Shown: positions 11,285 to 32,204 of the stretch, piece after piece
How positions within the stretch are numbered: position 1 is the stretch's first letter
How the letters are laid out: every line of letters starts with the position of its first letter
Assembly: GCA_017553505.1 (NCBI GenBank)
Contig: JAFZLD010000025.1
Coordinates: forward strand, 1-64,000
Length of the DNA: 64,000 nucleotides
Source: Lachnospiraceae bacterium
GTDB lineage: Bacteria; Bacillota; Clostridia; Lachnospirales; Lachnospiraceae
Reading direction: 5' to 3'
Notes under the pieces: model-generated
What the model was told of the DNA's origin: nothing
Database searches by the model: none
Seen by the model: only the letters and a program-made list of their open reading frames with translations
Position numbers and translations under genes: made by a program

Positions 11285-11316
11285 GCAAAATATGACAAGT
11301 TTTTGGCAAGGAGTAA
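11285..11316 (+). promoter_or_regulatory. 21-bp direct-repeat operator of the GH8 operon
   Basis: GCAAAATATGA (11285-11295) and GCAAGGAGTAA (11306-11316) start exactly 21 bp apart, each preceded by TTG. A -10-like TAAACT starts 36 bp after the second copy (11342-11347). An alternative promoter reading is TTGGCA (11303-11308) with GATAAT (11325-11330). The spacing matches AraC-type activator sites and three other promoters in this window. Confidence 0.6.
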
Positions 11317-11409
11317 AGAGATAAGATAATTTTGCTTGGTTTAAACTTGATTTACAATCGGTCTACGTATACGTTTTCGAAGACCGGCGAGAGGGAAGGG
11401 ATATTGTGT

Positions 11410-12540
11410 ATGGATATGCATAGTTACAGGAATGTTTTTGCGGAAGTCGGCTATACCGAGAATGAAATCGGAAACCGCCTTGAGGAAATTAAGAAAGAGT
11501 TTTTCTTTGGCGAAGACAGAGTATATTTTGAGACCGGAAGCGATATGGCTTATATCGTGGATACCGGTAATAATGATGCGCGTACAGAAGGTATGTCTTA
11601 CGGCATGATGATGTGCGTACAGCTTAATATGCATGAAGAGTTTGACCGTTTGTGGAAATGGGCCAAGACTTACATGTGGATGTCGGAAGGCGAGAATGAA
11701 GGTTATTTCGCCTGGTCCTGTGCACTTGACGGCAAGAAGAACGCATACGGTCCCGCGCCCGACGGTGAAGAGTATTTTGCGATGGCTCTTCTTTTTGCAT
11801 CTCACAGATGGGGTGACGGAGAAGGCATCTTTAATTACAGCAAGGAAGCTTGCGATATACTGACTGCCATGATTCATAAGGGAAGAGGCGACAGAGCCGG
11901 CGCTCCCATGATGAATGCGGATAATTATCAGATTTTGTTCGTGCCCGGCATCGGATTTACGGATCCTTCGTATCATCTTCCTCATTTCTACAAGTTATTT
12001 GCGGAGTGGGGTCCCGAGGCGGACAGAGAGTTCTGGAACAAGGCAAGCCTTGTGGCAAGAGATTATCTTGTGAAGGCATGTCATCCCGTGACCGGTTTTT
12101 CGGCTGAGTATGCAGAGTTTGACGGAAGCCCTCTTAAGATGAAGCTTCCCTGGAGCAAGGACCGTCACGACTGGTTCTATTCGGATTCTTACAGAACAGT
12201 TGCCAATATCGGTCTTGATTATGAATGGAACAAGATTGACGTAGGTCAGATTAAGGCTTGCGGCAATATTCAGAGAGCTCTTCTTGATGATATGAGAGCT
12301 GATACTTATCACATTTATGAAGTGGACGGAAGAGTTGCCGGCGAGAAGGCACTTCATCCTTACGGAATCACCGCAACGGTTGCGGAAAGCGTTCTTGGTT
12401 CCAAGCTTGATAATGTGGCAATCGAATGGGTTAAGAAGTTTTTTGAAATGCCCATGAGAAAAGGCGAAAGAAGATATTATGATAATTGCCTCTATGTTTT
12501 TGCATTCCTTGCATTAAGCGGCAATTACAGAATTTGGTAA
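11410..12540 (+). CDS. GH8 reducing-end xylose-releasing exo-oligoxylanase
   Basis: Family 8 enzymes of this subgroup (Rex) trim xylose from the reducing end of xylo-oligosaccharides by an inverting mechanism. The 376-residue product has the NDARTEGMSYGMMM block with catalytic Glu60 and the APDGEEYFAMALLFA block typical of the subgroup. Length is close to characterised Rex enzymes. There is no signal peptide, so it should act in the cytoplasm on imported oligosaccharides. An upstream in-frame TTG at 11332 exists, but a purine-rich GGGAAGGG site ending at 11400 supports ATG 11410, which also begins at the family N-terminus. It is first in an operon with the SGNH esterase and a GH43. Confidence 0.88.
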   Translation: MDMHSYRNVFAEVGYTENEIGNRLEEIKKEFFFGEDRVYFETGSDMAYIVDTGNNDARTEGMSYGMMMCVQLNMHEEFDRLWKWAKTYMWMSEGENEGYFAWSCALDGKKNAYGPAPDGEEYFAMALLFASHRWGDGEGIFNYSKEACDILTAMIHKGRGDRAGAPMMNADNYQILFVPGIGFTDPSYHLPHFYKLFAEWGPEADREFWNKASLVARDYLVKACHPVTGFSAEYAEFDGSPLKMKLPWSKDRHDWFYSDSYRTVANIGLDYEWNKIDVGQIKACGNIQRALLDDMRADTYHIYEVDGRVAGEKALHPYGITATVAESVLGSKLDNVAIEWVKKFFEMPMRKGERRYYDNCLYVFAFLALSGNYRIW

Positions 12541-12555
12541 AGGAAAGATTGAGAT

Positions 12556-14277
12556 ATGACAGAAGTTGTTAAAGGGGGAAACGGCGGGCCTAAGGCTCCC
12601 AAGGATCCTACCAAGAAACGTCCCGGATTTTGCATTATGCGTAATAAGAGAATATCGGCTTCACCGCAGCCTGACGGTACCGGTGTATGCTTCATATTCG
12701 AAAGCGACGGGAGATTGCTTGATTCCGCGCGTCTTGTAGGCGGAATTACGGATGAAAGTGTTATTGATTTACTTAAGACTGTTGAGTCTATGAAGAAACT
12801 TGTTCACTCTATCGGCGTTACAATTGAAAGCGACGACGGAGAGGACGTTAAGTTTGTATTCCAGATGTATGGCAAGACTAATCCTTACGTATCCGGCACC
12901 AGCATTGAGGCTACGGTAAGCGGAGACGGAATGGAGACGGTTATTCCTTTGTCTGAAGTTAACTGGTCAGATGATGACAATATTCCCGGTCAGATTAGAT
13001 TCCACTTTAAGAAAGGCGGAGATTTCGGTAACGTAACCGTTCGCTTTTACTTAAATGACGGATTTAGCGCTCCTGCCGAGGAAGATGAGACACCTGTAAG
13101 ATTCGATTCCCCTCAGTACAGAGCAATGATTGAGAAGTCTCTTATGAACAAGGGTAACAATGTTCGTATTAAGAGAGCTCTTGATAAGGCACGCAAGGGG
13201 CAGGACGTTACAATCGGCTTTATCGGCGGCTCCATTACTCAGGGCGCCGGCGCGGTTCCGATTAATACGGAGTGCTATGCTTACAAGACTTTTCAGGGAT
13301 TCTGTGATATTGCGGGCAGAGGATATGAAGATAATGTTCATTTTGTAAAGGGCGGTATCGGAGGAACTCCTTCCGAGCTCGGACTTTGCAGATATGAGAG
13401 AGATATATTGAGAAACGGTAAGGTTACGCCGGACGTTGTGGTTGTTGAGTTTGCCGTTAATGACGAGGGCGATGAGACTAAGGGCGAATGCTATGATTCT
13501 TTGGTTCGTAAGATTTACAACGGACCCGGTTCGCCTGCGGTTATATTGATTTTTGCAGTGTTCTCCAATGACTGGAATCTTCAGGACAGATTGAGCCCTG
13601 TCGGATTTGCGTACGATTTACCCATGGTCAGCACTTTAAACAGTGTGGTAGACCAGTTTGCACTTAAAGGTAACGATAGAGTGGTTAAGAAGAGTCAGTT
13701 CTTCTATGATTGCTATCATCCTACCAATATCGGCCACAGAATTATGGCAGACGGTATCATTAATCTGCTTAAGATTGCCGATGCAGAGCCTTGCGATGAT
13801 GCTGAAGTCAATATCAGTAGTATTAAGCCTCCCATTGGTGGAGAGTTTGAAAGCACATTGCTTTATGACAGAGCTTCCGAGGCTGATTATGTAAGTGTAG
13901 ATGCAGGTTCTTTTGCCGATACCGATGAAGTGATTCAGGCGGTTGAAATGGACCTTGATGTTACACATACCAAGGTTTACGTCAATAACTGGATGCATAA
14001 AGGCTCCAATCCCGATGCCACTCCTTTTTCCATGGATGTTGAGAGCTCGGCGCTCTTTATAGTAGTTAAGGATTCGGCAGATCCGGCGGATGGCACTGCT
14101 TCTGTATTTGTTGATGGCGAGAAAGTGTTGGATTACGACCCTCATGTTGTGGGTTGGTGCCACAGCAATGCGGTAATAGTATTCAGAGGCGGAGAGCTTA
14201 AGAAGAGACACATTGAGGTTGTGGTTAACGATCCGACCAAGAACTTTACGATTCTTGGATTTGGTATTGTCAGGTAG
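12556..14277 (+). CDS. SGNH/GDSL hydrolase, probable cytoplasmic xylo-oligosaccharide esterase
   Basis: The 573-residue protein has an N-terminal beta-rich region (about 25-180) and a central SGNH hydrolase domain (about 210-410). The active-site set is complete: Ser226 in GGSITQG, a glycine block in GGIGGTPSELG, Asn in VEFAVND, and Asp385/His388 in DCYHPTNIGH. The remaining ~170 residues form another beta-rich domain. With no signal peptide, it would act inside the cell, probably removing acetyl groups from imported xylo-oligosaccharides. That substrate is inferred from its place between GH8 and GH43 genes. Deacetylation of other sugars is possible. Confidence 0.8.
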   Translation: MTEVVKGGNGGPKAPKDPTKKRPGFCIMRNKRISASPQPDGTGVCFIFESDGRLLDSARLVGGITDESVIDLLKTVESMKKLVHSIGVTIESDDGEDVKFVFQMYGKTNPYVSGTSIEATVSGDGMETVIPLSEVNWSDDDNIPGQIRFHFKKGGDFGNVTVRFYLNDGFSAPAEEDETPVRFDSPQYRAMIEKSLMNKGNNVRIKRALDKARKGQDVTIGFIGGSITQGAGAVPINTECYAYKTFQGFCDIAGRGYEDNVHFVKGGIGGTPSELGLCRYERDILRNGKVTPDVVVVEFAVNDEGDETKGECYDSLVRKIYNGPGSPAVILIFAVFSNDWNLQDRLSPVGFAYDLPMVSTLNSVVDQFALKGNDRVVKKSQFFYDCYHPTNIGHRIMADGIINLLKIADAEPCDDAEVNISSIKPPIGGEFESTLLYDRASEADYVSVDAGSFADTDEVIQAVEMDLDVTHTKVYVNNWMHKGSNPDATPFSMDVESSALFIVVKDSADPADGTASVFVDGEKVLDYDPHVVGWCHSNAVIVFRGGELKKRHIEVVVNDPTKNFTILGFGIVR

Positions 14278-14294
14278 ATTGCGGAGTTAGACAG

Positions 14295-15836
14295 GTGAGA
14301 GAGTGTGATTTTAATCCAATAATTAAATCAGATTATCCGGACCCCGATGTTATTCGCGTGGGGGATACTTACTATATGCTCAGCACCACCATGCATTTTT
14401 TTCCGGGAGGTGCGTTGCTTAGGTCTTATGACCTTATTCACTGGGAGCCTATAGGACATCTTTTTGATTCTCTTGATGATACTCCGGAAGAGTGTCTGGA
14501 ACATGAATTTACAAATTACGGCCGCGGAATGTGGGCACCTTGCTTAAGATTCTGTAACGGAACTTTCTATGCAGTATTCGTAAGTCACGGCACCAAGAAG
14601 ACTTATCTTTTCAGAGCAAGCGATATTAACGGCCCCTGGAAGAAGAGCGTCATTAAGGGATACTATCATGATTGTTCCCTTCTTTTTGATGATGACGGCA
14701 GAATATATATAGTTTACGGTAACAGAGAGATTCATTTGACTGAGCTTGACAGTGAGCTTACGGGACCTAAGAGCGGTGGCCTTAATAAGGTTATTGCGGT
14801 TGACCCTGTTGACGGTCTCGGATATGAGGGTTCACATCTTTACAAGATTAACGGTAAGTATTACTTATTCCTGATTCACTGGGAAAAGCCGGGTATCGGA
14901 AGACGTTCGGAGGTATGCCTTTGCGCAGATTCGCTTGACGGTGAGTTTAAGGGCGGAGAAGTCCTTAATGACGATATGGGATTTTTCAATATGGGAGTTG
15001 CGCAGGGCGGTATTGTAGATACTCCTGCGGGTAAGTGGTATGCCATTTTGTTCAGAGATAACGGTGCAGTGGGACGTATTCCTGTTATTGTACCTGTAAC
15101 CTGGAAGAACGATTTCCCGGTGTTCGGTGTGGGCGGCAAGGTTCCTGCCAATATGGAAATTGCCAGCAGCCGTCCTTATTACAGATATGAGTCTGTGTAT
15201 ACTTCGGATTCTTTTAAATATGAGGATACGGAGGACGGACACCCCAAGCTTAAGGTTCAGTGGCAGTGGAATCATAAGCCTCATGATGAGTATTGGAGCA
15301 TACTTCCCGAGGGAGGTCTTAAGCTTAAGACAGATAAGCTTTCCATAAATGTTACGCATGCATGCAATACACTTACACAGCGTATGATGTATCCCAAGTG
15401 CGAAGCGGAAGTTACTGTTGACGCAAGCGGACTCAAGGAAGGCGATGTCGCAGGTATCTGTGCATTGCAGGGACTCTATGGACTTATCGGTATTACCAAG
15501 GAGACGGGCGAGTATTTCCTTGTTAAGATTGTAAGACCGGAGAAAGAACGCATGGACAACAGTAACGACTATATGCCGGGTATGGTAACCGAGAAGATTA
15601 AGCTTTCGGGACCGATTGTATCATTGTGCCTGAAGGCTGTATTTGAAGATATGCAGGATAAGCTCGATTTCTTTTACCTTAAGGACAGAAGATGGACCAA
15701 GGTAGGACCCGCGCATAATCTTAAGTTCAGACTGGATCATTTCTGCGGAGCAAGATTCGGACTTTTCGTGTATGCTACAAGAGAATGCGGCGGAAGCGCT
15801 GTGTTTACGAATTTTGAATACAGGTACAATACCTGA
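14295..15836 (+). CDS. GH43 beta-xylosidase / arabinofuranosidase, cytoplasmic
   Basis: This 513-residue enzyme has a GH43 propeller (about 5-300) and a C-terminal beta-sandwich domain (about 310-510) usual in two-domain xylosidases. Candidate catalytic base Asp16 lies in DYPDPDV and the general acid Glu178 in YEGSHLYK. It lacks a signal peptide and ends the GH8-esterase-GH43 operon, so it should cleave xylo- or arabinoxylo-oligosaccharides in the cytoplasm. The start is GTG at 14295, supported by GGAG at 14283-14286; no nearer ATG is in frame. It is closest in layout to GH43 subfamily 12, which includes both xylosidases and arabinofuranosidases. Confidence 0.85.
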   Translation: MRECDFNPIIKSDYPDPDVIRVGDTYYMLSTTMHFFPGGALLRSYDLIHWEPIGHLFDSLDDTPEECLEHEFTNYGRGMWAPCLRFCNGTFYAVFVSHGTKKTYLFRASDINGPWKKSVIKGYYHDCSLLFDDDGRIYIVYGNREIHLTELDSELTGPKSGGLNKVIAVDPVDGLGYEGSHLYKINGKYYLFLIHWEKPGIGRRSEVCLCADSLDGEFKGGEVLNDDMGFFNMGVAQGGIVDTPAGKWYAILFRDNGAVGRIPVIVPVTWKNDFPVFGVGGKVPANMEIASSRPYYRYESVYTSDSFKYEDTEDGHPKLKVQWQWNHKPHDEYWSILPEGGLKLKTDKLSINVTHACNTLTQRMMYPKCEAEVTVDASGLKEGDVAGICALQGLYGLIGITKETGEYFLVKIVRPEKERMDNSNDYMPGMVTEKIKLSGPIVSLCLKAVFEDMQDKLDFFYLKDRRWTKVGPAHNLKFRLDHFCGARFGLFVYATRECGGSAVFTNFEYRYNT

Positions 15837-15851
15837 TAATAAGATAAAGAA

Positions 15852-15886
15852 AACGCACTGGTGAATGGCTAGTGCGTTCTTTTTTT
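15852..15886. terminator. bidirectional terminator between GH43 and araC genes
   Basis: AACGCACT (15852-15859) pairs with AGTGCGTT (15871-15878) and is followed by a T-run on the plus strand. It overlaps the last codon of the minus-strand AraC gene. Confidence 0.8.
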
Positions 15887-16810
15887 GGAACCGCTGTTCT
15901 TGGAGCGGTATTCACTCGGTGTGCAGTTTTTCTGTTGTTTAAACAGGCGGTTGAAGGTGGAAATACTTGAGAAACCGGCCTGCATGGCAACTTCTGTAAT
16001 GGAGAAGTCGGGACTTGCGAGATAATCTTCCGCAACCTTGATACGTCTGAAAGTAAGGTAGTCGCAGAAGGTATATCCGGTATATTGCTTGAAAAGTCTC
16101 GAGAAATGGTACTTACTGAAACCAATCTGGTCCGCAACGTCTTCAAGGGATACGTCTTCCATGTAGTGGCTGTCGATATATTCGAGAGCCTGATTGAATT
16201 TCTGAACGTATTCCTTTTGCTTGTAAAGGCGGACGTTGGGGAAGAGCTCATCGGCGTTGTTGTGATTCTCGCCGATTTTCACAAACATGTTAAGTAAGAG
16301 CGATTGTATGGTGAGCTCTGCATAATCATTGTTATTAAAGTATTCGTTTCTTATCTGTAGCAATATTTGATAGATATCTTCGTATATCTTGGGGAAAGTT
16401 TCCTTAGTAATATGAAGCGGATGCGAAAGGATACTCTGTATTCCGGAGAAACCTTTGAGCCTGCTTATAAGCGTAATATTCATAAGGAAAATAAAACGCT
16501 TACCCCATTCGGGCGCGATTAACTCATGAACTTCACCGGGGGGAATAATAAGGATATCACCGGGATTGAGCCTGAAGTCCTCACCGTTAACCTTGGCATC
16601 GTAGAAGTTCTCGACAGGGGAGATTATCTCCATGGCGGTGTGCCAATGAGGGGCAAAAGAATAAGTCTGCTCATTCATCCAGATACGATGAGAGGTATTC
16701 TGCCAGAAATCGACAAGCTCTTCGGTATCATGAAGATTACGGGAGCCGTTCCAGTCGGCATTTATCTGATAGTAGTTAAAATTCTCTTTAAAATCGCTTT
16801 TTGTAGACAA
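15869..16810 (-). CDS. AraC family regulator of the xylan locus
   Basis: The 313-residue protein has an N-terminal cupin sugar-sensing domain with PHWHTAMEI and PGDILIIPPGEVHEL motifs. A C-terminal double helix-turn-helix (about 205-300) carries VADQIGFSKYHFSRLFKQYTG and VAMQAGFSSISTFNRLFK. A TTG start at 16810 is chosen because GGAGG (16817-16821) lies just before it; an upstream in-frame TTG at 16828 would overlap that site. It is divergent from the GH10 xylanase gene. Copies of a GCAA-N3-ATG-type element cover its own promoter and the GH10 promoter, so it is the natural candidate for the 21-bp direct-repeat regulon and for autoregulation. Confidence 0.9.
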   Translation of the reverse strand: MSTKSDFKENFNYYQINADWNGSRNLHDTEELVDFWQNTSHRIWMNEQTYSFAPHWHTAMEIISPVENFYDAKVNGEDFRLNPGDILIIPPGEVHELIAPEWGKRFIFLMNITLISRLKGFSGIQSILSHPLHITKETFPKIYEDIYQILLQIRNEYFNNNDYAELTIQSLLLNMFVKIGENHNNADELFPNVRLYKQKEYVQKFNQALEYIDSHYMEDVSLEDVADQIGFSKYHFSRLFKQYTGYTFCDYLTFRRIKVAEDYLASPDFSITEVAMQAGFSSISTFNRLFKQQKNCTPSEYRSKNSGSKKRTH

Positions 16811-16903: not shown

Positions 16904-16932
16904 ATTATAGCAAAGAATGAGAAGTTTGAAAA
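16904..16932 (-). promoter_or_regulatory. promoter of the araC gene
   Basis: On the minus strand TTTTCA (16927-16932) and a perfect TATAAT (16904-16909) are 17 bp apart. Regulator-like sites at 16910-16920 and 16933-16943 flank the -35, which would fit self-repression. Confidence 0.55.
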
Positions 16933-16964
16933 GCAAGACATGAACAATTATAAGCAAAAAATGG
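16910..16964 (+). promoter_or_regulatory. triple GCAA-N3-ATGR operator between araC and GH10
   Basis: GCAAAGAATGA (16910-16920), GCAAGACATGA (16933-16943) and GCAAAAAATGG (16954-16964) are near-identical direct repeats. The last two start 21 bp apart. A -10-like TACAAT (16989-16994) starts exactly 35 bp after the last copy begins, as at the promoter near 32166. Confidence 0.65.
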
Positions 16965-16994
16965 TTGGTTTTATACAATTTTTATAAATACAAT
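16965..16994 (+). promoter_or_regulatory. promoter of the GH10 xylanase gene
   Basis: TTGGTT (16965-16970) and TACAAT (16989-16994) are 18 bp apart. The third operator copy ends one base before the -35, the placement expected for a class II activator. Confidence 0.5.
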
Positions 16995-17037: not shown

Positions 17038-18459
17038 ATGATTAATAAAAAATGGAAATTTGCTTTATCACTTATGCTTTCGGCAAGCGTTCTTTTGACC
17101 GCATGCGGTGGTAAAGATGTACAGAGCGGCAATAATGAAACTTCGGCTTCGGTAAGCAGCATTGAAACATCAGTATCTTCGGCTTCCGAAGAGAAGACTG
17201 AGTCTTCAGAGAACGCGACGTCCGAGGCATCTGCAGAGGAAACTAAGACTGAGACTGCTGCGGAAGACCTTATTTTGAAGGATTGCGTAGAGAAGAATCT
17301 CGGTTGCTTTGTGGGATGTGCCGCTACGGAGAATGAACTCGCGGATCCCAAGGTATGGGACATTATTACCAAGCATTTCAATGCTATTACTTTCGGTAAC
17401 GAGCTTAAGCCCGATGCGTTGTTCAATTACAGCCTTTCTAAGCCTTCGGGCACAGAGACGGTTTCTTTTAACGGTGAAGACCTTCTTGTTCCGAAAATGG
17501 ACTATTCAAGAGCAGAGAGAATGCTTAAGAAGATCAAGAAGTGGAACGATGAAAATCCCGACAATACAATTAAGGTAAGAGGACATGTTCTTGTATGGCA
17601 TTCACAGACTCCCGAATGGTTTTTCCACGAGGACTATGACAAGTCTAAGCCCTATGTTGACAAGGACACCATGAACAAGCGCCTTGAGTGGTATATCTGC
17701 ACTGTGCTTACTCACTTTACCGGCGAGGACAGTGAGTGGAAGGGAATGTTCTACGGATGGGACGTTGTCAATGAGGCAATCAGTGACGCAACCTGCTCCT
17801 ACAGAAGCGACAATGAGAACCCCAATGAGAAGCTTTCCGAAGACAGACATGGCAGCAATTCAAGCTGGTGGCATGTCTATGAGAGCAACGAGTTCATCAT
17901 AAATGCGTTCAAGTATGCCAATAAATACGCACCCGCAGATCTGGAACTTTACTACAATGATTACAACGACTCGAACCTTGATAAGACACAGGGAATCGTT
18001 AAGCTTCTTCAGGCAGTTAAGGACGAGGAAGGTGAGCCCGGCGTCGGCACCAGAATTTCGGCGATGGGTATGCAGGGTCACTACGGAATGGAGAATCCTT
18101 CTTATAATAATATAGAAGCTGCAATTAAATCTTACTGCAAGGTAGTCGGACACGTTCAGATGACTGAAGTTGATATTTCGGCAAGCTCTGACTATACCGG
18201 CGACGCAAGTCAGAAAGACGAAGAGAACGAGAAGCTTAAGAAACGTTACAACATGATTAACTTCGCAATCACTGCAGCTATGAAGAAAGAAGAAGTTAAC
18301 TTCGACGGTATCACTTTCTGGGGAACGGTTGATCACTATTCATGGCTTCAGTCCCGCTCGAATGTAGGTGGCGGCAATACTACGGGACTTCCTCAGATGC
18401 CGTTGCTCTTTGATGAGAATTACGAGCCCAAGCCTTGCTTTTATGTGTTTGCCAAATAA
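17038..18459 (+). CDS. GH10 endo-1,4-beta-xylanase, lipoprotein
   Basis: This secreted, lipid-anchored xylanase would cut the xylan backbone at the cell surface. Residues 1-22 form a signal peptide with lipobox LLTAC and lipidated Cys23, followed by a Ser/Glu/Thr-rich linker to about residue 78. The GH10 barrel (about 85-470) carries the acid/base Glu246 in WDVVNEAI and the nucleophile Glu377 in MTEVDIS, plus the conserved RGHVLVWHSQTPEWF. No carbohydrate-binding module is attached. It is divergent from the AraC gene and has its own operator and promoter. No clear terminator separates it from the importer operon, so some read-through is possible. Confidence 0.95.
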   Translation: MINKKWKFALSLMLSASVLLTACGGKDVQSGNNETSASVSSIETSVSSASEEKTESSENATSEASAEETKTETAAEDLILKDCVEKNLGCFVGCAATENELADPKVWDIITKHFNAITFGNELKPDALFNYSLSKPSGTETVSFNGEDLLVPKMDYSRAERMLKKIKKWNDENPDNTIKVRGHVLVWHSQTPEWFFHEDYDKSKPYVDKDTMNKRLEWYICTVLTHFTGEDSEWKGMFYGWDVVNEAISDATCSYRSDNENPNEKLSEDRHGSNSSWWHVYESNEFIINAFKYANKYAPADLELYYNDYNDSNLDKTQGIVKLLQAVKDEEGEPGVGTRISAMGMQGHYGMENPSYNNIEAAIKSYCKVVGHVQMTEVDISASSDYTGDASQKDEENEKLKKRYNMINFAITAAMKKEEVNFDGITFWGTVDHYSWLQSRSNVGGGNTTGLPQMPLLFDENYEPKPCFYVFAK

Positions 18460-18496: not shown

Positions 18497-18528
18497 GCAA
18501 ATTTTGAGAAAAAAAAAGCACAATATCA
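18497..18528 (+). promoter_or_regulatory. 21-bp direct-repeat operator of the importer operon
   Basis: GCAAATTTTGA (18497-18507) and GCACAATATCA (18518-18528) start exactly 21 bp apart, each after an A-run. A weak -10-like TAATCT (18553-18558) starts 35 bp after the second copy, matching the geometry at the GH10 and adaptor promoters. Confidence 0.55.
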
Positions 18529-18543: not shown

Positions 18544-18555
18544 TAAAACGTTTAA
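18544..18555 (+). promoter_or_regulatory. candidate cre/LacI-type palindrome in the importer promoter
   Basis: TAAAACGTTTAA contains the perfect palindrome AAACGTTT, the core seen in LacI-family and CcpA operators. It overlaps the proposed -10 at 18553, a position expected for catabolite repression. Chance occurrence in AT-rich DNA cannot be excluded. Confidence 0.35.
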
Positions 18556-18623
18556 TCTTTTGTGTATAAGTGACATAATGCGTTTGTAATTATGTACAAT
18601 TTTACACCTTTTCGGAGGAAGAT

Positions 18624-21572: not shown

Positions 21573-21587
21573 GGCAGGAGAGTGCAG

Positions 21588-22526: not shown

Positions 22527-22527
22527 C

Positions 22528-23427: not shown

Positions 23428-23461
23428 TTTGGAAATATTCGAGACGGGATGGAGACATTTT

Positions 23462-24982
23462 ATGAAAAAACTGTTTGTAAGAATCGGAGCCATGGCTCTT
23501 GCAAGTGCGGTACTTGCCGGTTCTGTTAGCTTAAGTTCATATGCGGTAGATCGAAGCTATTCCTACAACTACGACTACTGGGGAGATGTTCAGGATTCTC
23601 CCGACTTTTATGAGCCTTGTAAGACATTTACCTGGAAGGATTTAAATCTTGACAAGAAAATTTCCAATCCTCAGGGTCTTACCGCAGATGGAGATTTTCT
23701 CTATCTTTGCGATTCAGGTAACAACAGAATCATTAAGATGAAGAGAAACACAAGAGAAAGCCTTGAAGTAGTAGAAATTTACGATCATTTCAATGGTAAG
23801 AGTTCAGATAACACATTTAATACTCCTACCGATCTTGCAATTTCCGAGGACGGTAATATCTTTATTGCCGATAAGGGTAATGCGAGAATCGTTAAGGTGG
23901 ACAAAGATTTTAATTATTTGATGGAATTTGGAAAGCCCAATGATTCATCTATTGATAAGGATCTTGCTTTTGCGCCCACAAAGCTTGTTGTTGATACCGC
24001 AGAGCGTGTTTATGCCGTTGCGGCAGGTATTAACAAAGGTTTGCTTAAATATGAGAGCGACGGAACATTCACCAACTTCCACGGAGCACCGCCTGCATCT
24101 TATAACTTTGTAGATTATATCTGGAAAAAATTTGCATCTCAGGAACAGCTCATGAAGATGGAATCTTTCGTTCCTACAGAGTACAGCAACTGCTATATCA
24201 ATGAAGATGGATTCATCTATGCTGTTGCAGGTTCTGTTGCCGAAGAAGATTTAAAGGGCTCCACTGTTCAGAACGTAAGACTTCTTAACCTTTTAGGTTC
24301 AGATATCTTAGTAAGAAACGGTGTATATTATGACGGTAAGTACCCTGTATACGGTGACCTTTACATGGGTTCCGGCGGAGGTATGACAGGCCCTTCTCAG
24401 TTTATAGATGTTACTTCTTTCCCCAATGAAGTATTTGTATGTCTTGATAAGAACAGAGGACGTCTTTTCTCTTATGACAATCAGGGACGACTTTTATTCT
24501 GCTGTGGCGGTAACGGTAACATGGACGGTTACTTCAGAAACCCCATCGCACTCGATCATATAGGCTATGACATTTACGTTTTGGACCAGCTTGACTGTGC
24601 CATAACCGTATTTACACTTACAAATTTCGGCGAGCTTGTATTCACAGCAATGGAAGACTTTGATGCCGGCAGATATAACGAATCTCTTGAAAGCTGGAAT
24701 CAGGTTATCAAGTATGACGGTAACTATGATTTGGCTTACATCGGAATCGGTCGTGCATACTTAAGACAGAAAGAATACAAGACCGCAATGGAGTATTTCA
24801 AGCTTAAATACGATGCTGAGAACTACTCGAAGGCTTACAGACAATATCGTAAGATTTGGGTAGAAGAGAACATAGTTGTAATTGTAATCGTGCTTCTTGT
24901 TCTTTTCCTTGTTCCCATGATTATCGGTAAGATTAAGTCGATTAAATACGAATTTGCAACCGCAGATATTTTTAAAGTATAA
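23462..24982 (+). CDS. extracytoplasmic NHL-repeat/TPR protein with C-terminal membrane anchor
   Basis: The 506-residue protein has a signal peptide (1-28, ending near SYA). A beta-propeller-like region (about 55-390) contains NHL repeats such as PTDLAISEDGNIFIADKGNARI. Two TPR helical pairs (about 395-460) are followed by a C-terminal hydrophobic anchor (about 470-490). Topology puts propeller and TPR outside the membrane. I do not know a defined function. Its place between importer permeases, YIP1 and DUF5696 genes suggests a scaffold or sensor for the transport complex. ATG 23462 is chosen over an upstream in-frame start at 23393 because it gives a proper signal peptide and follows GGAG. 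Confidence 0.75.
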   Translation: MKKLFVRIGAMALASAVLAGSVSLSSYAVDRSYSYNYDYWGDVQDSPDFYEPCKTFTWKDLNLDKKISNPQGLTADGDFLYLCDSGNNRIIKMKRNTRESLEVVEIYDHFNGKSSDNTFNTPTDLAISEDGNIFIADKGNARIVKVDKDFNYLMEFGKPNDSSIDKDLAFAPTKLVVDTAERVYAVAAGINKGLLKYESDGTFTNFHGAPPASYNFVDYIWKKFASQEQLMKMESFVPTEYSNCYINEDGFIYAVAGSVAEEDLKGSTVQNVRLLNLLGSDILVRNGVYYDGKYPVYGDLYMGSGGGMTGPSQFIDVTSFPNEVFVCLDKNRGRLFSYDNQGRLLFCCGGNGNMDGYFRNPIALDHIGYDIYVLDQLDCAITVFTLTNFGELVFTAMEDFDAGRYNESLESWNQVIKYDGNYDLAYIGIGRAYLRQKEYKTAMEYFKLKYDAENYSKAYRQYRKIWVEENIVVIVIVLLVLFLVPMIIGKIKSIKYEFATADIFKV

Positions 24983-25002
24983 AAGATAACGGAGAAATCA
25001 GC

Positions 25003-25659
25003 ATGTTTGCTTCATTATTCAGTAAGGAAAAATGGCAGCGCTATATAAAAAGCCTTAAGTTTGCATTGTACTGCACCACGCATCCCATTGACGGATTCTG
25101 GGATTTGACCCATGAAAGACGCGGTACTTATGCGGCCGCCAATACAATTTTATTTTTAACTATTCTTACGCGTATACTTAGATTAAGATATACAAGTTTT
25201 ATCTTTATTCAGGTATATTGGGAAGATCTTAATATCTTAACCTATGTGGCAAGTATTCTGATTCCCTTGGGCTTGTTTGTAGTAGGTAACTGGGCGCTCA
25301 CAACGTTGTTTGACGGTAAAGGACGCCTCGGGCAAGTATACATGGCTACGTGTTATGCACTTACCCCTTACATTCTTATAAACGTTCCCTTGATGATTTT
25401 CAGTAATTTCATCACGACCGAGGAAGCTCAGTTTTACTCGGTTGTCGGCATGATAGCACTGATATGGGTGGCTTTCATAGGAATTTTGGGCATGAGCCAG
25501 GTTCACGAATATTCTTTCGGTAAGAACATTCTTTTCCTGGTTGCCACAGTATTTGCAATGCTTGTTATGATATTCCTTTTGATGTTGTTCTTCAGCATGA
25601 TATCTCAAGGTGTTGCATACTTTGTATCCATTGCCAAAGAATTGCTGTATCGAATGTAA
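25003..25659 (+). CDS. YIP1 family integral membrane protein
   Basis: This is a 218-residue membrane protein with five or so hydrophobic helices and the Yip1-domain pattern, including HPIDGFWDLTHERRG near the N-terminus. Bacterial YIP1-domain proteins have no well-defined role. It lies between the NHL/TPR gene and the DUF5696 gene with gaps of about 20 bases, so co-transcription with the importers is likely. GGAGAA precedes the ATG. Confidence 0.75.
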   Translation: MFASLFSKEKWQRYIKSLKFALYCTTHPIDGFWDLTHERRGTYAAANTILFLTILTRILRLRYTSFIFIQVYWEDLNILTYVASILIPLGLFVVGNWALTTLFDGKGRLGQVYMATCYALTPYILINVPLMIFSNFITTEEAQFYSVVGMIALIWVAFIGILGMSQVHEYSFGKNILFLVATVFAMLVMIFLLMLFFSMISQGVAYFVSIAKELLYRM

Positions 25660-25682
25660 ACTTTTAAGAAATTGGAGTTGTC

Positions 25683-28289
25683 ATGAGCAAATATAATCCT
25701 ATCAGTGAAGAAAGAAAACAAGAGATAAAGATGAACATCATCAAGGAACTTAAAGCCTTGATTTTCCCCACAATTATGCTCCTTATTTTTGCGGGACTTG
25801 TAATCTTTATCATGAAATATCAAAGTACCGAGAAGGAAGAAGACCCGGTAGAGGTTAGAGCTTATACAGGCGATGATAAGACTATTGTCATGGAGAATAA
25901 GAGCCTCAAGTTTGAAATGGATCCCAAGCTTACAACTTTTGACCTTACGGTTAAGAGTTCGGGCAAGGTATGGCATTCGACTCCCGTAGATGCTGCAGAC
26001 GATGCGCTTGCAATTCTCGAAGAGAAGAATAAACTTCAGTCTACAGTTTTACTTACTTACGGAACAGATGCCGGTCTTGATACTACATATGACAGTTATT
26101 CCTTAAGTGCCTCTAACGGTATTTATGAGATTACAACAGGCGATGACTTTGTGCAGGTTGATTACTCAATCGGTAAGGTTGCCAAGGAGTTCGTAATTCC
26201 CCCTGCAATCTTAGCTTCCAGACTCGATGAGCTTTGCAGCACAATGTCTGTATCAGATAGAGAAAACGTAAAACAGTTATACAAGAAGCTTGATATTAAC
26301 AAGCTTAGTGCGGCAGATAAGAAAAACAAGGATTCTCTTCTTGAAGCATATCCCATTCTTGAAACAGAAGTAATTTACGTACTTCGTGAAGGCCAGAAGG
26401 ATAGTGCAAAGGCTCACTTACAGAAAGTGTTTGAAGAAGCCGGCTATACATATGAAGAATACATTGAAGACAAAGAGTTAAGTACTCTTGAAGCCACCAA
26501 CAGCAATCCTGTATTTAACGTATCTGTTATCTATAGACTTGACGGTGACGATCTTGTGGTAGACGTTCCGCTTTCATCAATCGACAGCCCTTCTTCTTAT
26601 CCTGTAACCAATGTTTGTGTACTTCCTTACTTTGGCGCGGGCAACACAGAAGAGGACGGTTATGTGCTTGTTCCCGAAGGTGGCGGTTCCATCATGAACT
26701 TTAACAACGGTAAATCTTCGCAGGCTATTTACTACTCCAACCTTTACGGATGGGATATGGCCATCGAAAGAAAAGACGTCGTTCATACCACTATTGCCAA
26801 TATGAACGTATTCGGTATCTCCGATAAGAAAGATTCCTTTATATGTGTTGTTGAAGGCGGTGCATCATATGCAGCTATTCGCGCCGATATAAGCGGAAGA
26901 GCATCAAGCTACAACTATGTGAATGCTGTATATACCGTTAAGCCCAGAGAAAAGTTCGATTTGGGCTCTAATTCAAACAAAGACGTTTATGTATATCTTG
27001 AGAACCTTCCCGAAGAAACACTTTCTCAGAGATACAGTTTTGTAGATTCCGGAAGCTATGTGGATATGGCCAAGGATTACAGAAGTTACCTTTTGAACAA
27101 ATATCCCGAATACATGACTAAGGTTACAGACAGCAATACACCTGTAGCGGTAGAAGTAGTCGGAGCTGTTGATAAGGTTAAGCAGATTGTTGGTATTCCT
27201 GTATCACGTCCGCTTCCACTTACCACTTATGATGAGGCCGAAGAACTCCTTTCAGAGCTTAAAGAAGACGGAATAGATAATCTTTCCGTTAAGTACTCCG
27301 GATGGTGTAACGGCGGTGTTAAACAGAAATACTTAAAGAATATTAAGAAGGTTTCGGCTCTTGGCTCTTACTCAGACTTAAAGAACCTTACAGCCAAGGC
27401 TCAAGAGATGGGCATCAGCCTTTATCTTGACGGTATGGTTCAGTATGAGAAAGATTCCAATATCTTTAACGGATTCTTCTCTTACAGAGATGCAGCGAAG
27501 TTCTTAAGCCGCAAGAGAGCAGAACTTTACGAATATAGTGCTATTACTTATACCGCCAGAGAGGGTCTTGACAGCTACTTCCTGTTACACGGAGACATTA
27601 TTCCTTCGCTTATGGGTAAGTTATCCGCAACAGCATCCAAGTACAATGCAAATGTTTCATTCCTTGATGTTGGTAAAGATCTTTCTTCTGACTATTGGAG
27701 AAAAGACTATACTTCAAGAGAAGAAGCTTTGAATCTTCAGGTAGAAGAACTTAAGAAGATTAAGGAAAGCGGTCAGAAGGTTATGATCAACAGCGGTAAC
27801 GCTTATGCGCTTCCTTATGCAGACTTTATTACAAACATGGATTTAAAGGGTAGTGAATATACTATTCTTGATGCAACAGTTCCTTTCTATCAGATAGCTA
27901 TTCATGGTTATAAGGATTACACCGGTCAGCCCATTAACGTATGCGGTAATCAGGAGGAAGAACTTCTGACTTCCGCAGAATATGGCGCAGGTCTTTCCTT
28001 TACATTTATGAAAGAGTCATCTTTCACACTTCAGAAGACTCTTTATACCAAGTACTATGGTTCAGACTTTGCAGAGTGGGAAGAGGAGATGAAGTCCATC
28101 TACTCACGCTACAATGCAGAACTCGGACACACATTCAAACAGGAAATCAAAGATCATGTTATGATCAACAACGATGTAAGAATGACCGTTTATGAAGACG
28201 GTACCAAGGTATATGTCAACTACGGTTACGAAGCATTCAACTATAACGGAGTAAAGATTCCCGCCAGAGATTATCTGGTAGTTAGATAG
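25683..28289 (+). CDS. DUF5696-type membrane-anchored, glycosidase-like protein
   Basis: The 868-residue product has a single N-terminal membrane helix (about 27-46) and a large extracytoplasmic part. A beta-rich domain (about 55-430) resembles the N-terminal sandwich of GH31/GH36-type glycosidases. A probable TIM barrel (about 480-780) carries acidic strand ends such as LYLDGM and SFLDVGKD. The layout recalls the DUF5696 family seen next to carbohydrate importers in other Firmicutes; that family link is from memory and not tested. Catalytic activity is unproven. It could process oligosaccharides before import or merely bind them. GGAG at 25673-25676 precedes the ATG. Confidence 0.65.
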   Translation: MSKYNPISEERKQEIKMNIIKELKALIFPTIMLLIFAGLVIFIMKYQSTEKEEDPVEVRAYTGDDKTIVMENKSLKFEMDPKLTTFDLTVKSSGKVWHSTPVDAADDALAILEEKNKLQSTVLLTYGTDAGLDTTYDSYSLSASNGIYEITTGDDFVQVDYSIGKVAKEFVIPPAILASRLDELCSTMSVSDRENVKQLYKKLDINKLSAADKKNKDSLLEAYPILETEVIYVLREGQKDSAKAHLQKVFEEAGYTYEEYIEDKELSTLEATNSNPVFNVSVIYRLDGDDLVVDVPLSSIDSPSSYPVTNVCVLPYFGAGNTEEDGYVLVPEGGGSIMNFNNGKSSQAIYYSNLYGWDMAIERKDVVHTTIANMNVFGISDKKDSFICVVEGGASYAAIRADISGRASSYNYVNAVYTVKPREKFDLGSNSNKDVYVYLENLPEETLSQRYSFVDSGSYVDMAKDYRSYLLNKYPEYMTKVTDSNTPVAVEVVGAVDKVKQIVGIPVSRPLPLTTYDEAEELLSELKEDGIDNLSVKYSGWCNGGVKQKYLKNIKKVSALGSYSDLKNLTAKAQEMGISLYLDGMVQYEKDSNIFNGFFSYRDAAKFLSRKRAELYEYSAITYTAREGLDSYFLLHGDIIPSLMGKLSATASKYNANVSFLDVGKDLSSDYWRKDYTSREEALNLQVEELKKIKESGQKVMINSGNAYALPYADFITNMDLKGSEYTILDATVPFYQIAIHGYKDYTGQPINVCGNQEEELLTSAEYGAGLSFTFMKESSFTLQKTLYTKYYGSDFAEWEEEMKSIYSRYNAELGHTFKQEIKDHVMINNDVRMTVYEDGTKVYVNYGYEAFNYNGVKIPARDYLVVR

Positions 28290-28325
28290 TAGATATACCA
28301 AATTTGTGAGAGGTAAGTTTTTATT

Positions 28326-29234
28326 ATGAAGAAACAAAAAAACAAATTAGCGGGTCTTCAGAAGAGAAAAGCGATAGCGGGTTATCTGTTCATACTTCCT
28401 TTTATACTCGGTTTCCTGCTTTTTATGCTCAAGCCTATGTTTCAGTCATTATACATGAGCTTTAGCAATGTTAAACTCGGCGCCGGCTCGGTTGAAATGG
28501 AGTGGATCGGACTTAAGAACTATTACGATGCGTTCCGTACCGACCCCGATTATATGAGAATGCTTGGAGAGACACTCGGGCAGATGGTTCTTTATTCATT
28601 CGGTATCATCGTCTTCAGTTTCTTTGTTGCATTGATTCTTAATCAGGAGTTTAGAGGCCGTGCTCTTGTAAGAGCTGTGTTCTTCCTTCCGGTTATTATT
28701 TCATCAGGTGTTATTTTGGGACTCGAAGAAAATAACTCCCTTATGGCTACTATTGCGACTACAGTTGATGCTTCGGTATCTAATATAGATATTACCGCAA
28801 GCTTGCAGGACGTATTGAGAACTGCAGGTGTCGGAGTCAGAGCGTATGAGTGGGTATTTGAAATAATTGCCAATATTTATGATATTGCCATTGCATCAGG
28901 TATTCAGATTATCATCTTCCTGTCAGGACTTCAGACAATCTCAAGCAGTATGTATGAGGCTGCTGATATTGAGGGATGTACTAAGTGGGAGAGCCTTTGG
29001 AAGATTACATTTCCCATGATCAGTTCAATCTTCTTAGTAAACTGGATTTATACCGTTGTTGACTATAGTATGAGATCTGACAATGACGTTATGGATAAGA
29101 TACAGACGGTACTTACCGTTCAGCTTAACTATGGTCTGTCTTCAGCGATGGCCTGGGCATACTTCGTAATAGTTACGGCATTTATAGGAATTACATCCTT
29201 CTTCATTTCTAAGGGGGTTTACTACTATGACTAA
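28326..29234 (+). CDS. carbohydrate ABC transporter permease (LplB/MalF-like), importer 2
   Basis: The 302-residue permease has six membrane helices and the EAA loop EAADIEGCTKWESLWKITFP (about 216-235). An extra segment of about 50 residues between helices (about 135-185, LEENNSLM...VGVRAYEWV) distinguishes it from the importer 1 permease. It overlaps the next permease gene by eight bases, a sign of tight coupling. With its partner it forms a second importer in the same operon. Confidence 0.9.
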   Translation: MKKQKNKLAGLQKRKAIAGYLFILPFILGFLLFMLKPMFQSLYMSFSNVKLGAGSVEMEWIGLKNYYDAFRTDPDYMRMLGETLGQMVLYSFGIIVFSFFVALILNQEFRGRALVRAVFFLPVIISSGVILGLEENNSLMATIATTVDASVSNIDITASLQDVLRTAGVGVRAYEWVFEIIANIYDIAIASGIQIIIFLSGLQTISSSMYEAADIEGCTKWESLWKITFPMISSIFLVNWIYTVVDYSMRSDNDVMDKIQTVLTVQLNYGLSSAMAWAYFVIVTAFIGITSFFISKGVYYYD

Positions 29235-30243
29235 AAAAGTAAAAGTTCAAAAATACAGTACCTACTGGGACAGAAATAAAAAGTCCGGCGGATACCTCTT
29301 TAGAAAAGATGTTACCAATGTATTGGTAAAGTTTTGCAGATTCATACTTTTATTCGGACTTTGCTTCCTGATTCTTATTCCTTTGTTTAATAAGATTTCG
29401 GTAAGCTTCATGAAGCAGGAAGATTTATACAATCCTATAGTTGTATCGGTTCCCCTTCATTTTACGGGTGAGAACTATCAGCTTGCAGCCAAAATCATGA
29501 AATATGGTGTAGGTCTTAAGAACTCAATCATATTCTCATTGGCACTTTCGGTTATACAGACTGCAATGTGTACAATAGTTGGTTACGGATTTGCACGATT
29601 TAAATTCCCGCTTAAGAAGATGTGGTTTGCATTCGTACTTGCGATGATTATCATTCCTCCGCAGGCATTTTCAAGCTCACTTTATCTTCACTTTAACATG
29701 TGGGATTTCCTTGGTATCGTTAAGCTTATCAAGGGACAGGGCATTAACCTTCGAGGCAGTGCCATTCCTTATTTCATGATGAGTTTCACTTGCTGTGGAC
29801 TTAAGAACGGCTTATATATTTACCTTGTAAGACAGTTCTTCAGAAATATTCCTATCGACCTTGAAGAGGCTGCTTATGTAGACGGTTGCGGTATGATGAA
29901 GACCTTTGTACGTATCATGCTTCCCGAAGCTAAGCCTATTATTACATCATGCTTCCTTTTCTCACTTGTATGGCAGTGGACAGACGGTTTCTACTCCAAG
30001 CTTTTCCTTGGTAACAATATCTTGGTAAGTACAGAATTATCAAGACTTGTGGATAGCTTGGGTGTATACGTAGCCAGAGAGATGGGCGGCGGTGCCAATG
30101 CACAGGTCGGTGTATCAACTCAGTACTCCAACGCTATACTTGCAACAGGTACTTTGATGATTGTTTTCCCTATACTTGTGGTATATCTCTTCGCACAGAG
30201 AGCGTTCGTAGAAAGTATCTCAAGTACAGGTATAAAAATGTAA
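29227..30243 (+). CDS. carbohydrate ABC transporter permease (MalG-like), importer 2
   Basis: This is the 338-residue second half of importer 2, with six helices and the EAA loop EEAAYVDGCGMMKTFVRIMLPE (about 217-238). The N-terminal basic region is longer than in the importer 1 homologue. The start overlaps the upstream permease. A 160-base gap follows, containing a promoter for the binding-protein gene, so the binding protein can be made in excess. Confidence 0.9.
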   Translation: MTKKVKVQKYSTYWDRNKKSGGYLFRKDVTNVLVKFCRFILLFGLCFLILIPLFNKISVSFMKQEDLYNPIVVSVPLHFTGENYQLAAKIMKYGVGLKNSIIFSLALSVIQTAMCTIVGYGFARFKFPLKKMWFAFVLAMIIIPPQAFSSSLYLHFNMWDFLGIVKLIKGQGINLRGSAIPYFMMSFTCCGLKNGLYIYLVRQFFRNIPIDLEEAAYVDGCGMMKTFVRIMLPEAKPIITSCFLFSLVWQWTDGFYSKLFLGNNILVSTELSRLVDSLGVYVAREMGGGANAQVGVSTQYSNAILATGTLMIVFPILVVYLFAQRAFVESISSTGIKM

Positions 30244-30357
30244 CAAAAAAATCGTTTTTTGGCTTCCATATTTATCCAGTATGTAGTAAAATGATTAGGT
30301 AATCGTTTAAGTTTGTATGTATTATGCATTGACGTTGGCACTCCCGGAAGAGTTTAA

Positions 30358-30386
30358 TTGTCAACATTGATGCTATAGTATATAGA
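30358..30386 (+). promoter_or_regulatory. internal promoter before the second solute-binding protein
   Basis: TTGTCA (30358-30363) and TATAGA (30381-30386) are 17 bp apart, just upstream of a strong AGGAGG ribosome site. No 21-bp direct repeat is evident here. Confidence 0.45.
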
Positions 30387-30405
30387 TAATAGGAGGAAAA
30401 ATACT

Positions 30406-31872
30406 ATGAGAAAGCCTATGGCAAAGAAGGTTTTAGCAGCTTCTATGGCAGCCGCTATGACCATGAGTTTTGCAGCTTGTGAAAAGGCACCCGCTTCTGT
30501 TTCCGAGTCTGCAGCACCCGCTTCAACCGAGCCTGAAGTATCAGCATCCGTTGAAGAAGAAGTTAGCCCTTATACCGTATTAAAGGACGCTAACGGCAAC
30601 ACCTACGATCTTGGCGGTGTTGAAATTATTATTCGTGACTGGTTCTCCAATGCTGAGAGACAGGAAGCTAAGACTGAGTACGAAGAAGCTCAGTACGCTT
30701 ACCAGGATTGGATCCAGGAAACTTACAACTTCAAAATTCACGCAGAAACCATCGGTGACTGGGGAACAGTAGCTCAGGACTTCGTTGATTACGCTACAGC
30801 AGGCGGCGACGACAAGAACTACGTATTCACCCTTCACTCAGGTGATGGCACACTTCTTTCAGCGATCGACAATGGTCTTGTTTATGACCTTTCTACTCTT
30901 GATTGCCTTGACTTCTCTGAAGCAAAGTGGGCTAACGGCGTTCACAAACTTTATACCGTTAACGGCGGTATCTATGCATTCCGTGCAGGTTATGCAGAGC
31001 CCAGAACCGGTTTATACTTCAACAAGAAGATCTTAAGAGAAGCCGGTGTTGATCCTGATTCTATTTACGATATGCAGAAGAATGATACCTGGACATGGGC
31101 AGCATTCGAAGAGATCCTTGAGAAGGTTCAGCAGGATACCGATAACGATGGTACCATCGATATCTGGGGTCTTGGTGTTAACGAAGGCGTTATGGTTACA
31201 GCAGCTGTATTCTCTAACGGCGGTAAGTACGTTGATCAGGATGCTAACGGCAAGTACACCTATGAATTCGAATCTCCCGAAACTCTTGAAGCTCTTGAAT
31301 GGGTTCGTGATATCTTCTCCAAGTATGACTGGAATGGTCCTGTAGACGATGAAGGAAATACTGCATGGGATTACTATCAGGGTCAGTTCCAGAACGGCGG
31401 ATGCGCATTCGTATGCGATCAGCAGTACTGTGCAGCTCCCGGTAACCTCTTCTACGAGCAGCCTGAGACAGAAGATGGTCTTGGCTTCGTAATGTTCCCG
31501 AAGGGACCTAAGGGTAAGCTTGTTCAGACCGCACAGGATAATGTTTGCATTATCCCTGCTTGCTACGATGCTGACAGAGCTTGGAAGTGTGCATTTGCAT
31601 ACAGCCTTTACAACGAGCTTGTTCCCGGTTATGAAGATTACAACCCTTACGTAAATACCACACGTACCGGTAACTTCGACCAGAGAGCATGTGAGGAAAC
31701 TATTCCGCTTATGTCTAAGAACTCTGACATTCAGTTAGAAGCAGTTATCCCTAACCTTGATATGGGAGCTCCTTTCCAGTGGAAGTTTGGTCCTGATATG
31801 GGTCCTGTTTCCGAAGTCTTAGATGGATGCCGCGACATGTACAAGCAGTACATCGAGGAAGCTAACCAGTAA
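30406..31872 (+). CDS. extracellular solute-binding lipoprotein, importer 2
   Basis: The 488-residue protein has a signal peptide with lipobox SFAAC and lipidated Cys25, then an Ala/Ser/Glu-rich linker to about residue 55. The family 1 solute-binding fold contains GLYFNKKILREAGVDPDSI and a calcium-site-like DTDNDGTIDIWG loop. It follows two permease genes and most likely supplies importer 2. The substrate is probably an arabinoxylan-derived oligosaccharide, inferred only from context. A strong terminator follows. Confidence 0.9.
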   Translation: MRKPMAKKVLAASMAAAMTMSFAACEKAPASVSESAAPASTEPEVSASVEEEVSPYTVLKDANGNTYDLGGVEIIIRDWFSNAERQEAKTEYEEAQYAYQDWIQETYNFKIHAETIGDWGTVAQDFVDYATAGGDDKNYVFTLHSGDGTLLSAIDNGLVYDLSTLDCLDFSEAKWANGVHKLYTVNGGIYAFRAGYAEPRTGLYFNKKILREAGVDPDSIYDMQKNDTWTWAAFEEILEKVQQDTDNDGTIDIWGLGVNEGVMVTAAVFSNGGKYVDQDANGKYTYEFESPETLEALEWVRDIFSKYDWNGPVDDEGNTAWDYYQGQFQNGGCAFVCDQQYCAAPGNLFYEQPETEDGLGFVMFPKGPKGKLVQTAQDNVCIIPACYDADRAWKCAFAYSLYNELVPGYEDYNPYVNTTRTGNFDQRACEETIPLMSKNSDIQLEAVIPNLDMGAPFQWKFGPDMGPVSEVLDGCRDMYKQYIEEANQ

Positions 31873-31897
31873 GATATTGGTTTAACTAAATAATACT

Positions 31898-31930
31898 AAA
31901 GGACGATGTTTTCCGGGCATCGTCCTTTTT
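31898..31930 (+). terminator. terminator after the importer locus
   Basis: AAAGGACGATG (31898-31908) pairs with CATCGTCCTTT (31918-31928) followed by T-rich sequence. It separates the importer genes from the adaptor/FtsX operon. Confidence 0.9.
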
Positions 31931-32204
31931 CTTTGCGCTTTTTTCGAAAAGGGGAGATTTTGCATATAAGAAAACCGTTTTACCTTTGATGCAATTATAT
32001 TAAACATAATTGGGCACTATAGGAAACTTAAAATTGCATAAGAAATTATTCTTCGCAATTTCTCGTGCATTTTTCTTTACTAATTAACACCTGATTTTTG
32101 GTCAATTTAGCACAATTTTGCTTAAAAAAAGCAAAAAGTAATAGGAATTATGCATTACCATAAAGTACAATGTCTTTTGTAGCTTGAAATATTGGAGATT
32201 TACT
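31931..32204 (+). other. regulatory intergenic region upstream of the adaptor/FtsX operon
   Basis: No gene is visible. Apart from the operator and -10 listed separately, TTTTGCTT (32116-32123) and AAGCAAAA (32129-32136) form a perfect inverted repeat with a 5-base spacer that overlaps the second operator copy. The rest is AT-rich and unremarkable. Confidence 0.6.
32110..32141 (+). promoter_or_regulatory. 21-bp direct-repeat operator of the adaptor/FtsX operon
   Basis: GCACAATTTTG (32110-32120) and GCAAAAAGTAA (32131-32141) start exactly 21 bp apart. A -10-like TACAAT (32166-32171) starts 35 bp after the second copy begins and has no good -35, as expected for an activator-dependent promoter. 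Confidence 0.6.

Follow-up and report, generated by a model that had tools for sequence, protein, structure and literature searches.

A tandem operator with fixed 21-bp spacing and its likely AraC-family regulator at xylan promoters of a Lachnospiraceae bacterium

In a 64,000-nucleotide stretch of DNA of a rumen Lachnospiraceae bacterium (assembly GCA_017553505.1, contig JAFZLD010000025.1, positions 1 to 64,000; hereafter the window), four promoters at a xylan locus carry two same-orientation copies of a short element that start exactly 21 bp apart. We propose with good confidence, on comparative grounds, that these dyads serve as operator for an activator of the AraC family that governs xylan use, and that the AraC-family protein encoded at 15869-16810 would bind both copies. 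The operator, its spacing, its distance to the -10 hexamer, its conservation and the genes beside it are read from the DNA itself. A preliminary description of this stretch was right in its observation and largely right in its interpretation, once the consensus is corrected, the regulon widened and the regulator taken as likely.

The dyads all lie on the plus strand: at 11285/11306 (11285..11316) before a GH8-GDSL-GH43 gene group, at 16933/16954 (16933..16964) before GH10, at 18497/18518 (18497..18528) before a solute-binding protein and ABC transporter genes, and at 32110/32131 (32110..32141) before HlyD, FtsX, ABC and GH43 genes. All nine copies listed earlier were present at their positions, and so were the -10-like hexamers. 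TACAAT (16989..16994), TAATCT (18553..18558) and TACAAT (32166..32171) start 35 bp after the second copy, TAAACT (11342..11347) 36 bp after it. The consensus originally given, GCAA-N3-RTGA, fits only two of the four pairs: in a loosened form it matches 11285 and 16933 and misses 18497 and 32110. It was discarded as a search pattern, the loosened form occurring at four places in the genome, two of them in the window. The corrected consensus is GCAAnnnnTGA-N10-GCAnnAnnT-N5-G, with the -10 usually 35 bp after the second G. Over 29 hand-assembled sites (the four of the window and 25 of relatives, near-duplicates and regions without a dyad being left out), the first copy reads GCAA-N4-TGA. In the second copy, the G, C and A of GCA are found in 28, 29 and 29 sites, an A at +5 in 24, a T at +8 in all 29 and a G at +14 in 28.

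A TAnnnT hexamer with at most two mismatches to TATAAT starts at +35 in 24 of the 29 sites, compared to 8 of 29 for the next-best offset, +38. The sites of relatives were selected with the 35-column matrix, which ends at +12, so both the G at +14 and the -10 are independent of it. The fixed -10 distance claimed earlier is thus upheld as a +35 rule over the 29 sites, but within the window only 16933 and 32110, two of the four, comply. At a distance of 17 bp upstream of this -10, a -35 box would occupy +12 to +17, at the end of the second half-site. By eye, no TTGACA-like box was recognized in this slot in the four window promoters and the 29-site set, only the G at +14 being conserved. Two same-orientation half-sites about two helical turns apart, of which the downstream one adjoins the -35 slot, correspond to the class II arrangement of AraC-type proteins, as had been suggested. 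Such an activator would suit these promoters because the second half-site adjoins a -35 slot without a recognizable -35 box.

A third half-site, GCAAAGAATGA (16910..16920, plus strand), starts 23 bp before the GH10 dyad, and none of its 11 bases differs in strain G007. It had been assigned to the promoter of araC. The copy is present, but it faces GH10 and not araC, and for this orientation we rejected it as an element of araC's own promoter. No clear counterpart was seen by eye in the distant relatives' regions that were viewed.

AT-rich intergenic DNA might yield GCA pairs at 21 bp by chance, from which good ones were then picked. The window was scanned, on both strands, with two weight matrices made from relatives. 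The 35-column matrix comprised 13 dyads from other species, located before genes beside AraC relatives and picked from regions in which a pair had already been seen. On this matrix the top two places went to 16933 (28.3) and 18497 (24.9), in that order, and 32110 and 11285 came fourth and fifth (15.0 each), below a match at 54357 inside an open reading frame (ORF; 15.8). Since best scores in 40 simulated windows reached 21.8 (mean 13.1), these two sites are borderline on that matrix, which is what speaks for chance. The 65-column matrix comprised 21 rows of relatives and no window rows, with orthologous promoters and 30 bases downstream added. Here the four sites took ranks 1 to 4 (18497 with 36.2, 16933 with 28.1, 32110 with 27.0 and 11285 with 19.7), followed by a match at 12.4. 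The best score among 100 Markov-simulated windows was 15.9, and 200 column-permuted matrices gave best scores of at most 19.0 and fourth-best scores of at most 7.4. All four pairs therefore stand above chance on this matrix (lowest 19.7 versus a simulated maximum of 15.9). Because the relatives include orthologues of the same promoters, this test covers conservation as well as chance. Taking the four sites together, and with the strain comparison and the orthologous promoters described below, we consider chance pairing highly improbable; the largest remaining doubt in this respect concerns 11285 alone.

Inspection of the same intergenic regions in related genomes, as proposed earlier, confirmed that the dyads are conserved. 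Between the window and strain G007, 4 of 88 half-site bases differ (2 of 22 in the 11285 operator), none of 40 in the linkers and 2 of 120 in the stretch leading from the dyad to the -10. Elsewhere in these four intergenic regions there are 223 differences over 715 positions, a number inflated by counting end gaps. We then considered the DNA upstream of HlyD, GH8, solute-binding and GH10 relatives within the genus, 68 regions in all, leaving out partial or distant rows (solute-binding L134 and L141-L143, 4 of 24; GH10 L158 and L161-L163, 4 of 20; L numbers are our locus labels). Among orthologues of the solute-binding protein (66-100% identity), 12 of 14, window included, have a dyad scoring at least 22, and in the two without one the gene starts 29 and 47 bp downstream of a GH10 gene. 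None of six solute-binding paralogues (29-41%) has a dyad scoring above 8.9. Dyads of at least 14.9 precede 8 of 16 HlyD relatives, or 5 of 13 without the species group of the window (L099 is weak, with 9.8), and HlyD orthologues in five further genomes have dyads scoring 19-26. This conservation matters because 32110 fitted the original consensus worst. For GH8, 5 of 16 relatives reach at least 14.9 (L113 12.4), and the orthologues in genomes G006 and G012 score 25.5; for GH10, 5 of 16 reach at least 22 (L150 12.3).

The regulon extends, as the genome-wide matches support, to unlinked promoters of the same genome (3.13 Mb, 28 contigs). A model trained on relatives only (R1, matches taken at E up to 10) gave 11 genome matches. 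Its two best, 16933 and then 18497, lie in the window, and seven of the nine elsewhere are intergenic and located before plausible xylan or pentose genes. On the 65-column matrix, four of these unlinked sites are strong: those before a 1606-aa GH10-CBM9 xylanase (27.2), before a MATE transporter followed by an alpha-L-arabinofuranosidase, which we take to be of family GH51 (23.5), before a CBM6/CBM2 protein (21.2) and before a GH11-polysaccharide deacetylase (18.7). No site of at least 16 occurred in the 100 simulated windows. Weak sites precede a transketolase (13.8), a putative esterase (13.6) and a GH43 gene on contig C19 (6.1). When the window sites were included in training (R2), they scored top, and an extra site was found before a GH43 gene on contig C23 (12.2 on the 65-column matrix). 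The genome has seven GH43 matches at E up to 1e-10, four of them beyond the window; two of these four are preceded by one of the weak sites.

Of the 18 genomes of the genus, our own included, 17 have R2 sites (E up to 0.02). In the other members we scanned the genes at 10 of 16 unlinked stretches; two further stretches, L238 and L239, are without a site of at least 8 on the 65-column matrix. Among the ten genes scanned, GH115 and UxuA (two of each), GH3 and an ABC permease are consistent with a role in xylan use; no obvious connection was seen for a TPP enzyme, DUF3169 and GH77, and one fragment gave no match. R2 sites also lie directly after GH8 in G003, G010 (twice) and G011, and in the G010 locus L008 the site after GH8 is one before a GH43. 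The claim that the element defines a xylan regulon is thus supported by its conservation in relatives together with the seven of nine outside R1 matches at plausible genes.

The best candidate for the binder is the AraC-family protein encoded between the first two dyads (15869..16810, minus strand), which is 99% identical to that of a near relative, Lachnospiraceae bacterium YSD2013; identities over the proteins compared with this strain are 97-100%. It combines a cupin-like N-terminal domain (PF02311, 30.9 bits against a cut-off of 21.1) with two helix-turn-helix motifs in the C-terminal domain, where PF00165 matches in two stretches and PF12833 above its cut-off; residues 201-310 match chains of SoxS, RamA, Rob and MarA. 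No named equivalog (AraC, MelR, RhaS, ChbR or others) was found in the 25 of 32 NCBIfam rows examined, all below cut-offs, and no receiver domain among Pfam families at E up to 1e-5.

Linkage of this protein to the dyad is good, if not proof. Among 24 upstream regions of close orthologues, including the window and near-duplicates and leaving out same-species duplicates, truncated loci, L045 and L046, 19 have a GCA-21-GCA pair that points away from araC (simulated regions: mean 1.9, maximum 7 in 100 simulations), versus 0 of 24 on the other strand. In a family-wide search of 160 genomes, one per genus, with 32 candidates per genome scored under strict filters, a match to the AraC (E up to 1e-60) was found in 21 genomes and a dyad (E up to 0.001) in 6, our own included. 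The six dyad places outside our genome are spread over five genomes. At four of them a full-length AraC relative of 37-41% identity lies no more than about 7 kb away, a fifth has two AraCs of 24-25% nearby, and for the sixth no AraC is present in the 12 kb read. Within the genus, a close AraC is present in 15 genomes, and every one of these carries sites, many directly beside araC. The result for members without one is mixed, with no site in G005 and sites in G006 and G012. That is, the assignment put forward earlier is favoured by linkage (19 of 24 regions, four of six places), but given the mixed genus result the neighbouring AraC is the likely binder and not an established one.

A conserved autoregulatory dyad facing araC was also looked for, and none was consistent across the 24 upstream regions. 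A single half-site facing araC, GCAATATTTAC, is found exactly in 8 of 24 relatives (L010, L011, L013, L018, L042 and L053-L055) and in 10 of 24 when one change is allowed (adding L050 and L057); it was not found in the window. This half-site possibly reflects autoregulation.

In the mechanism we propose, a dimer of the AraC at 15869-16810 would bind both half-sites, which face the same way and lie two helical turns (21 bp) apart. A xylan-derived oligosaccharide would presumably occupy its N-terminal domain. With the downstream copy adjoining the -35 slot, the bound dimer would recruit RNA polymerase in class II activation. The operator would control the four window promoters, at least four strong unlinked ones and probably three or four weaker ones. 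With one operator at promoters in the window and at unlinked ones, this AraC would regulate xylan use across the genome. The binding protein, activation instead of repression, and the inducer are the parts of this scheme that we infer.

Several observations weigh against this scheme. In the window, 18497 (TAATCT, three mismatches) and 11285 (+36) fail the +35 rule, and 11285 is at the same time the weakest site with a poor -10, that of 18497 being poor as well. The block conserved with strain G007 continues towards the start codon at the GH10 and solute-binding promoters, so that the footprint has no sharp downstream edge there, and 10 of 16 GH8 relatives and 10 of 16 GH10 relatives have no dyad of at least 12. 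Outside the window, two of the nine R1 matches (C5 and C7) are not before relevant genes, R2 also matches inside ORFs (C1:109496, C7:15009 and C8:66933), and the weak sites before the esterase, the transketolase and the GH43 genes on C23 and C19 lean on gene function. The family-wide motif search was insensitive, with sites in 6 of 160 genomes versus the AraC in 21. Concerning the regulator, the best AraCs of G006 and G012 are only 44% and 39% identical, and GCA-21-GCA is also found in 12 of 22 regions of a distant AraC group of 37-47% identity (simulated mean 2.1, maximum 6). Since this group adjoins nearly the same dyad, the dyad does not single out one protein.

These last points lead to a rival explanation, by which the operator is real and bound by another AraC-type protein, such as a 37%-identical paralogue on contig C8, the neighbouring AraC being local or unrelated. 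The genome holds 23 AraC-domain matches, G006 and G012 carry sites without a close orthologue, the C8 paralogue and the window AraC have nearly the same first recognition helix, and the 35-column matrix reaches 19.5 at L199:10940, about 4 kb from the C8 paralogue. However, its second recognition helix differs (SLSSFIRMFK versus SISTFNRLFK), the 11 kb around it are without a site of at least 8 on the 65-column matrix, and it is the window AraC whose orthologues adjoin the dyad, in 19 of 24 regions. We therefore judge another binder to be unlikely. A protein bound so close to the promoter could also be a repressor that leaves when xylo-oligosaccharide is present, and a second half-site adjoining the -35 slot would suit a repressor too. 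The four promoters, though, would be weak without help because nothing like TTGACA can be seen by eye in their -35 slot, and the four single-component AraC-family regulators of Caldicellulosiruptor were read as activators (PMC8579813, in the portion considered here). Repression thus appears quite improbable to us, and activation by the neighbouring AraC is the reading we prefer.

The arrangement resembles that of Escherichia coli AraC, which at araI1-araI2 acts by class II activation from two tandem, same-orientation half-sites with a 21-bp spacing, of which the downstream half-site lies at -35. The tandem half-sites of the window share this orientation, spacing and placement, and the protein likewise has a cupin-like domain and two helix-turn-helix motifs. 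In contrast, the half-site sequence is different, the proposed targets are several unlinked polysaccharide operons and not arabinose use, and the looping operator that is part of the E. coli comparison has no counterpart shown in the window. The kind of gene control is thus classical and well known; the operator is a new instance of it.

Regulators of other sugar users were each compared through the parts of the publications considered here. In Caldicellulosiruptor, all four single-component AraC-family sugar regulators have tandem sites upstream of promoter elements (PMC8579813), and their tandem repeats with large spacers and their comparative-genomic regulons are like ours; the xylan master regulators there are XynR, of the LacI family, and AraR, and AraC types at xylan loci are described as local (PMC8579813). 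XydR of Clostridium cellulolyticum has an AraC-type DNA-binding domain and acts over hemicellulase and CBM6 genes (PMC3572039), but it is the response regulator of a two-component system (PMC3572039), unlike the window AraC, for which no receiver domain was found among the Pfam families; the dyad is not present in the examined part of the table of shared upstream sequences (PMC3572039). The xylan loci of Roseburia, also Lachnospiraceae, have an AraC gene together with GH8, GH43, GH115 and ABC genes, but the text considered on these AraC genes gives no operator or regulon (PMC5320581). For Clostridium phytofermentans, a motif of a xylan-specific start-site cluster has been published (PMC5171806, Fig. 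4d), and an earlier sighting of the same element in this motif is possible. In the portions considered of PMC8579813, PMC10766802, PMC5171806, PMC5320581 and PMC3572039, the Fig. 4d motif of PMC5171806 not being compared, we found no operator or regulon for an AraC xylan regulator in Lachnospiraceae.

The genes around the dyads form a xylan locus, in which GH43-CBM6 on the minus strand is followed by GH8, a GDSL esterase, GH43, AraC (minus strand), GH10 and a 982-aa solute-binding protein. ABC permeases, NHL, Yip1, DUF5696, further permeases and a second solute-binding protein follow. Two HlyD-like adaptors come next, with an FtsX permease, two ABC ATPases and one more GH43. Going by Pfam matches, the proposed targets, all on the plus strand, are GH8, the GDSL esterase and GH43 (11410..15836; an operon inferred from spacing) and the GH10 xylanase (17038..18459). 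The third dyad would serve a putative operon (18624..31872) of the solute-binding protein, two permeases, NHL, Yip1, DUF5696, two permeases and the second solute-binding protein. The fourth would serve another of putative extent (32205..43238; Pfam and NCBIfam), with the two HlyD-like adaptors, FtsX permease, two ABC ATPases, GH43 and two unassigned proteins.

GH43-CBM6 (9626-11215) is divergent from GH8, and both have their intergenic region in common; no strong dyad facing GH43-CBM6 was among the top matches listed in the 35- and 65-column scans. In the 982-aa solute-binding protein (18624-21572) the binding domain covers residues ~575-881, and the first 570 residues gave no Pfam match at E up to 1e-5. 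The HlyD-HlyD-FtsX-ABC-ABC export operon (32205-39735), followed by a GH43, is MacB/Lol-like in parts; it has the xylan operator in common with the other promoters, and its predicted export function lies in a Gram-positive. The unassigned proteins at 41346-42323 (325 aa) and 42327-43238 (303 aa) are neighbours with a mutual likeness by eye. Neither has a Pfam or NCBIfam match at the thresholds used, and relatives of 56-61% identity are found in loci L009, L016 and L017.

In locus L030:1803-16284, a 43%-identical AraC lies beside GH67, GH3, GH2, an esterase and an ABC transporter, with nearly the same 21-bp dyad. Since this AraC sits among GH67, GH3, GH2 and ABC genes, a second xylan module appears to use nearly the same operator. 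By eye, the recognition segments are much alike in most members of both AraC groups, exceptions being L038, L039 and L041. A tentative and on balance doubtful extension is that one Lachnospiraceae xylan operator is read by at least two AraC clades, with modules cross-wired via a near-identical 21-bp dyad and with HlyD/FtsX export built into xylan degradation in a Gram-positive bacterium. If true, the clade of the window AraC would serve xylo-oligosaccharide uptake, xylanases and HlyD/FtsX export, and the other clade would be the one located beside GH67, GH3 and GH2 genes.

By breaking down xylan, Lachnospiraceae of the rumen and gut make an important contribution to the energy gained from plant fibre. 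In the literature found, as far as the parts considered go, AraC regulators are named in such xylan loci without an operator. A tested operator would allow the xylan gene set to be read from sequence in uncultured species, and this set would include unlinked xylanases as well as genes without an assigned role, those of the HlyD/FtsX operon among them.

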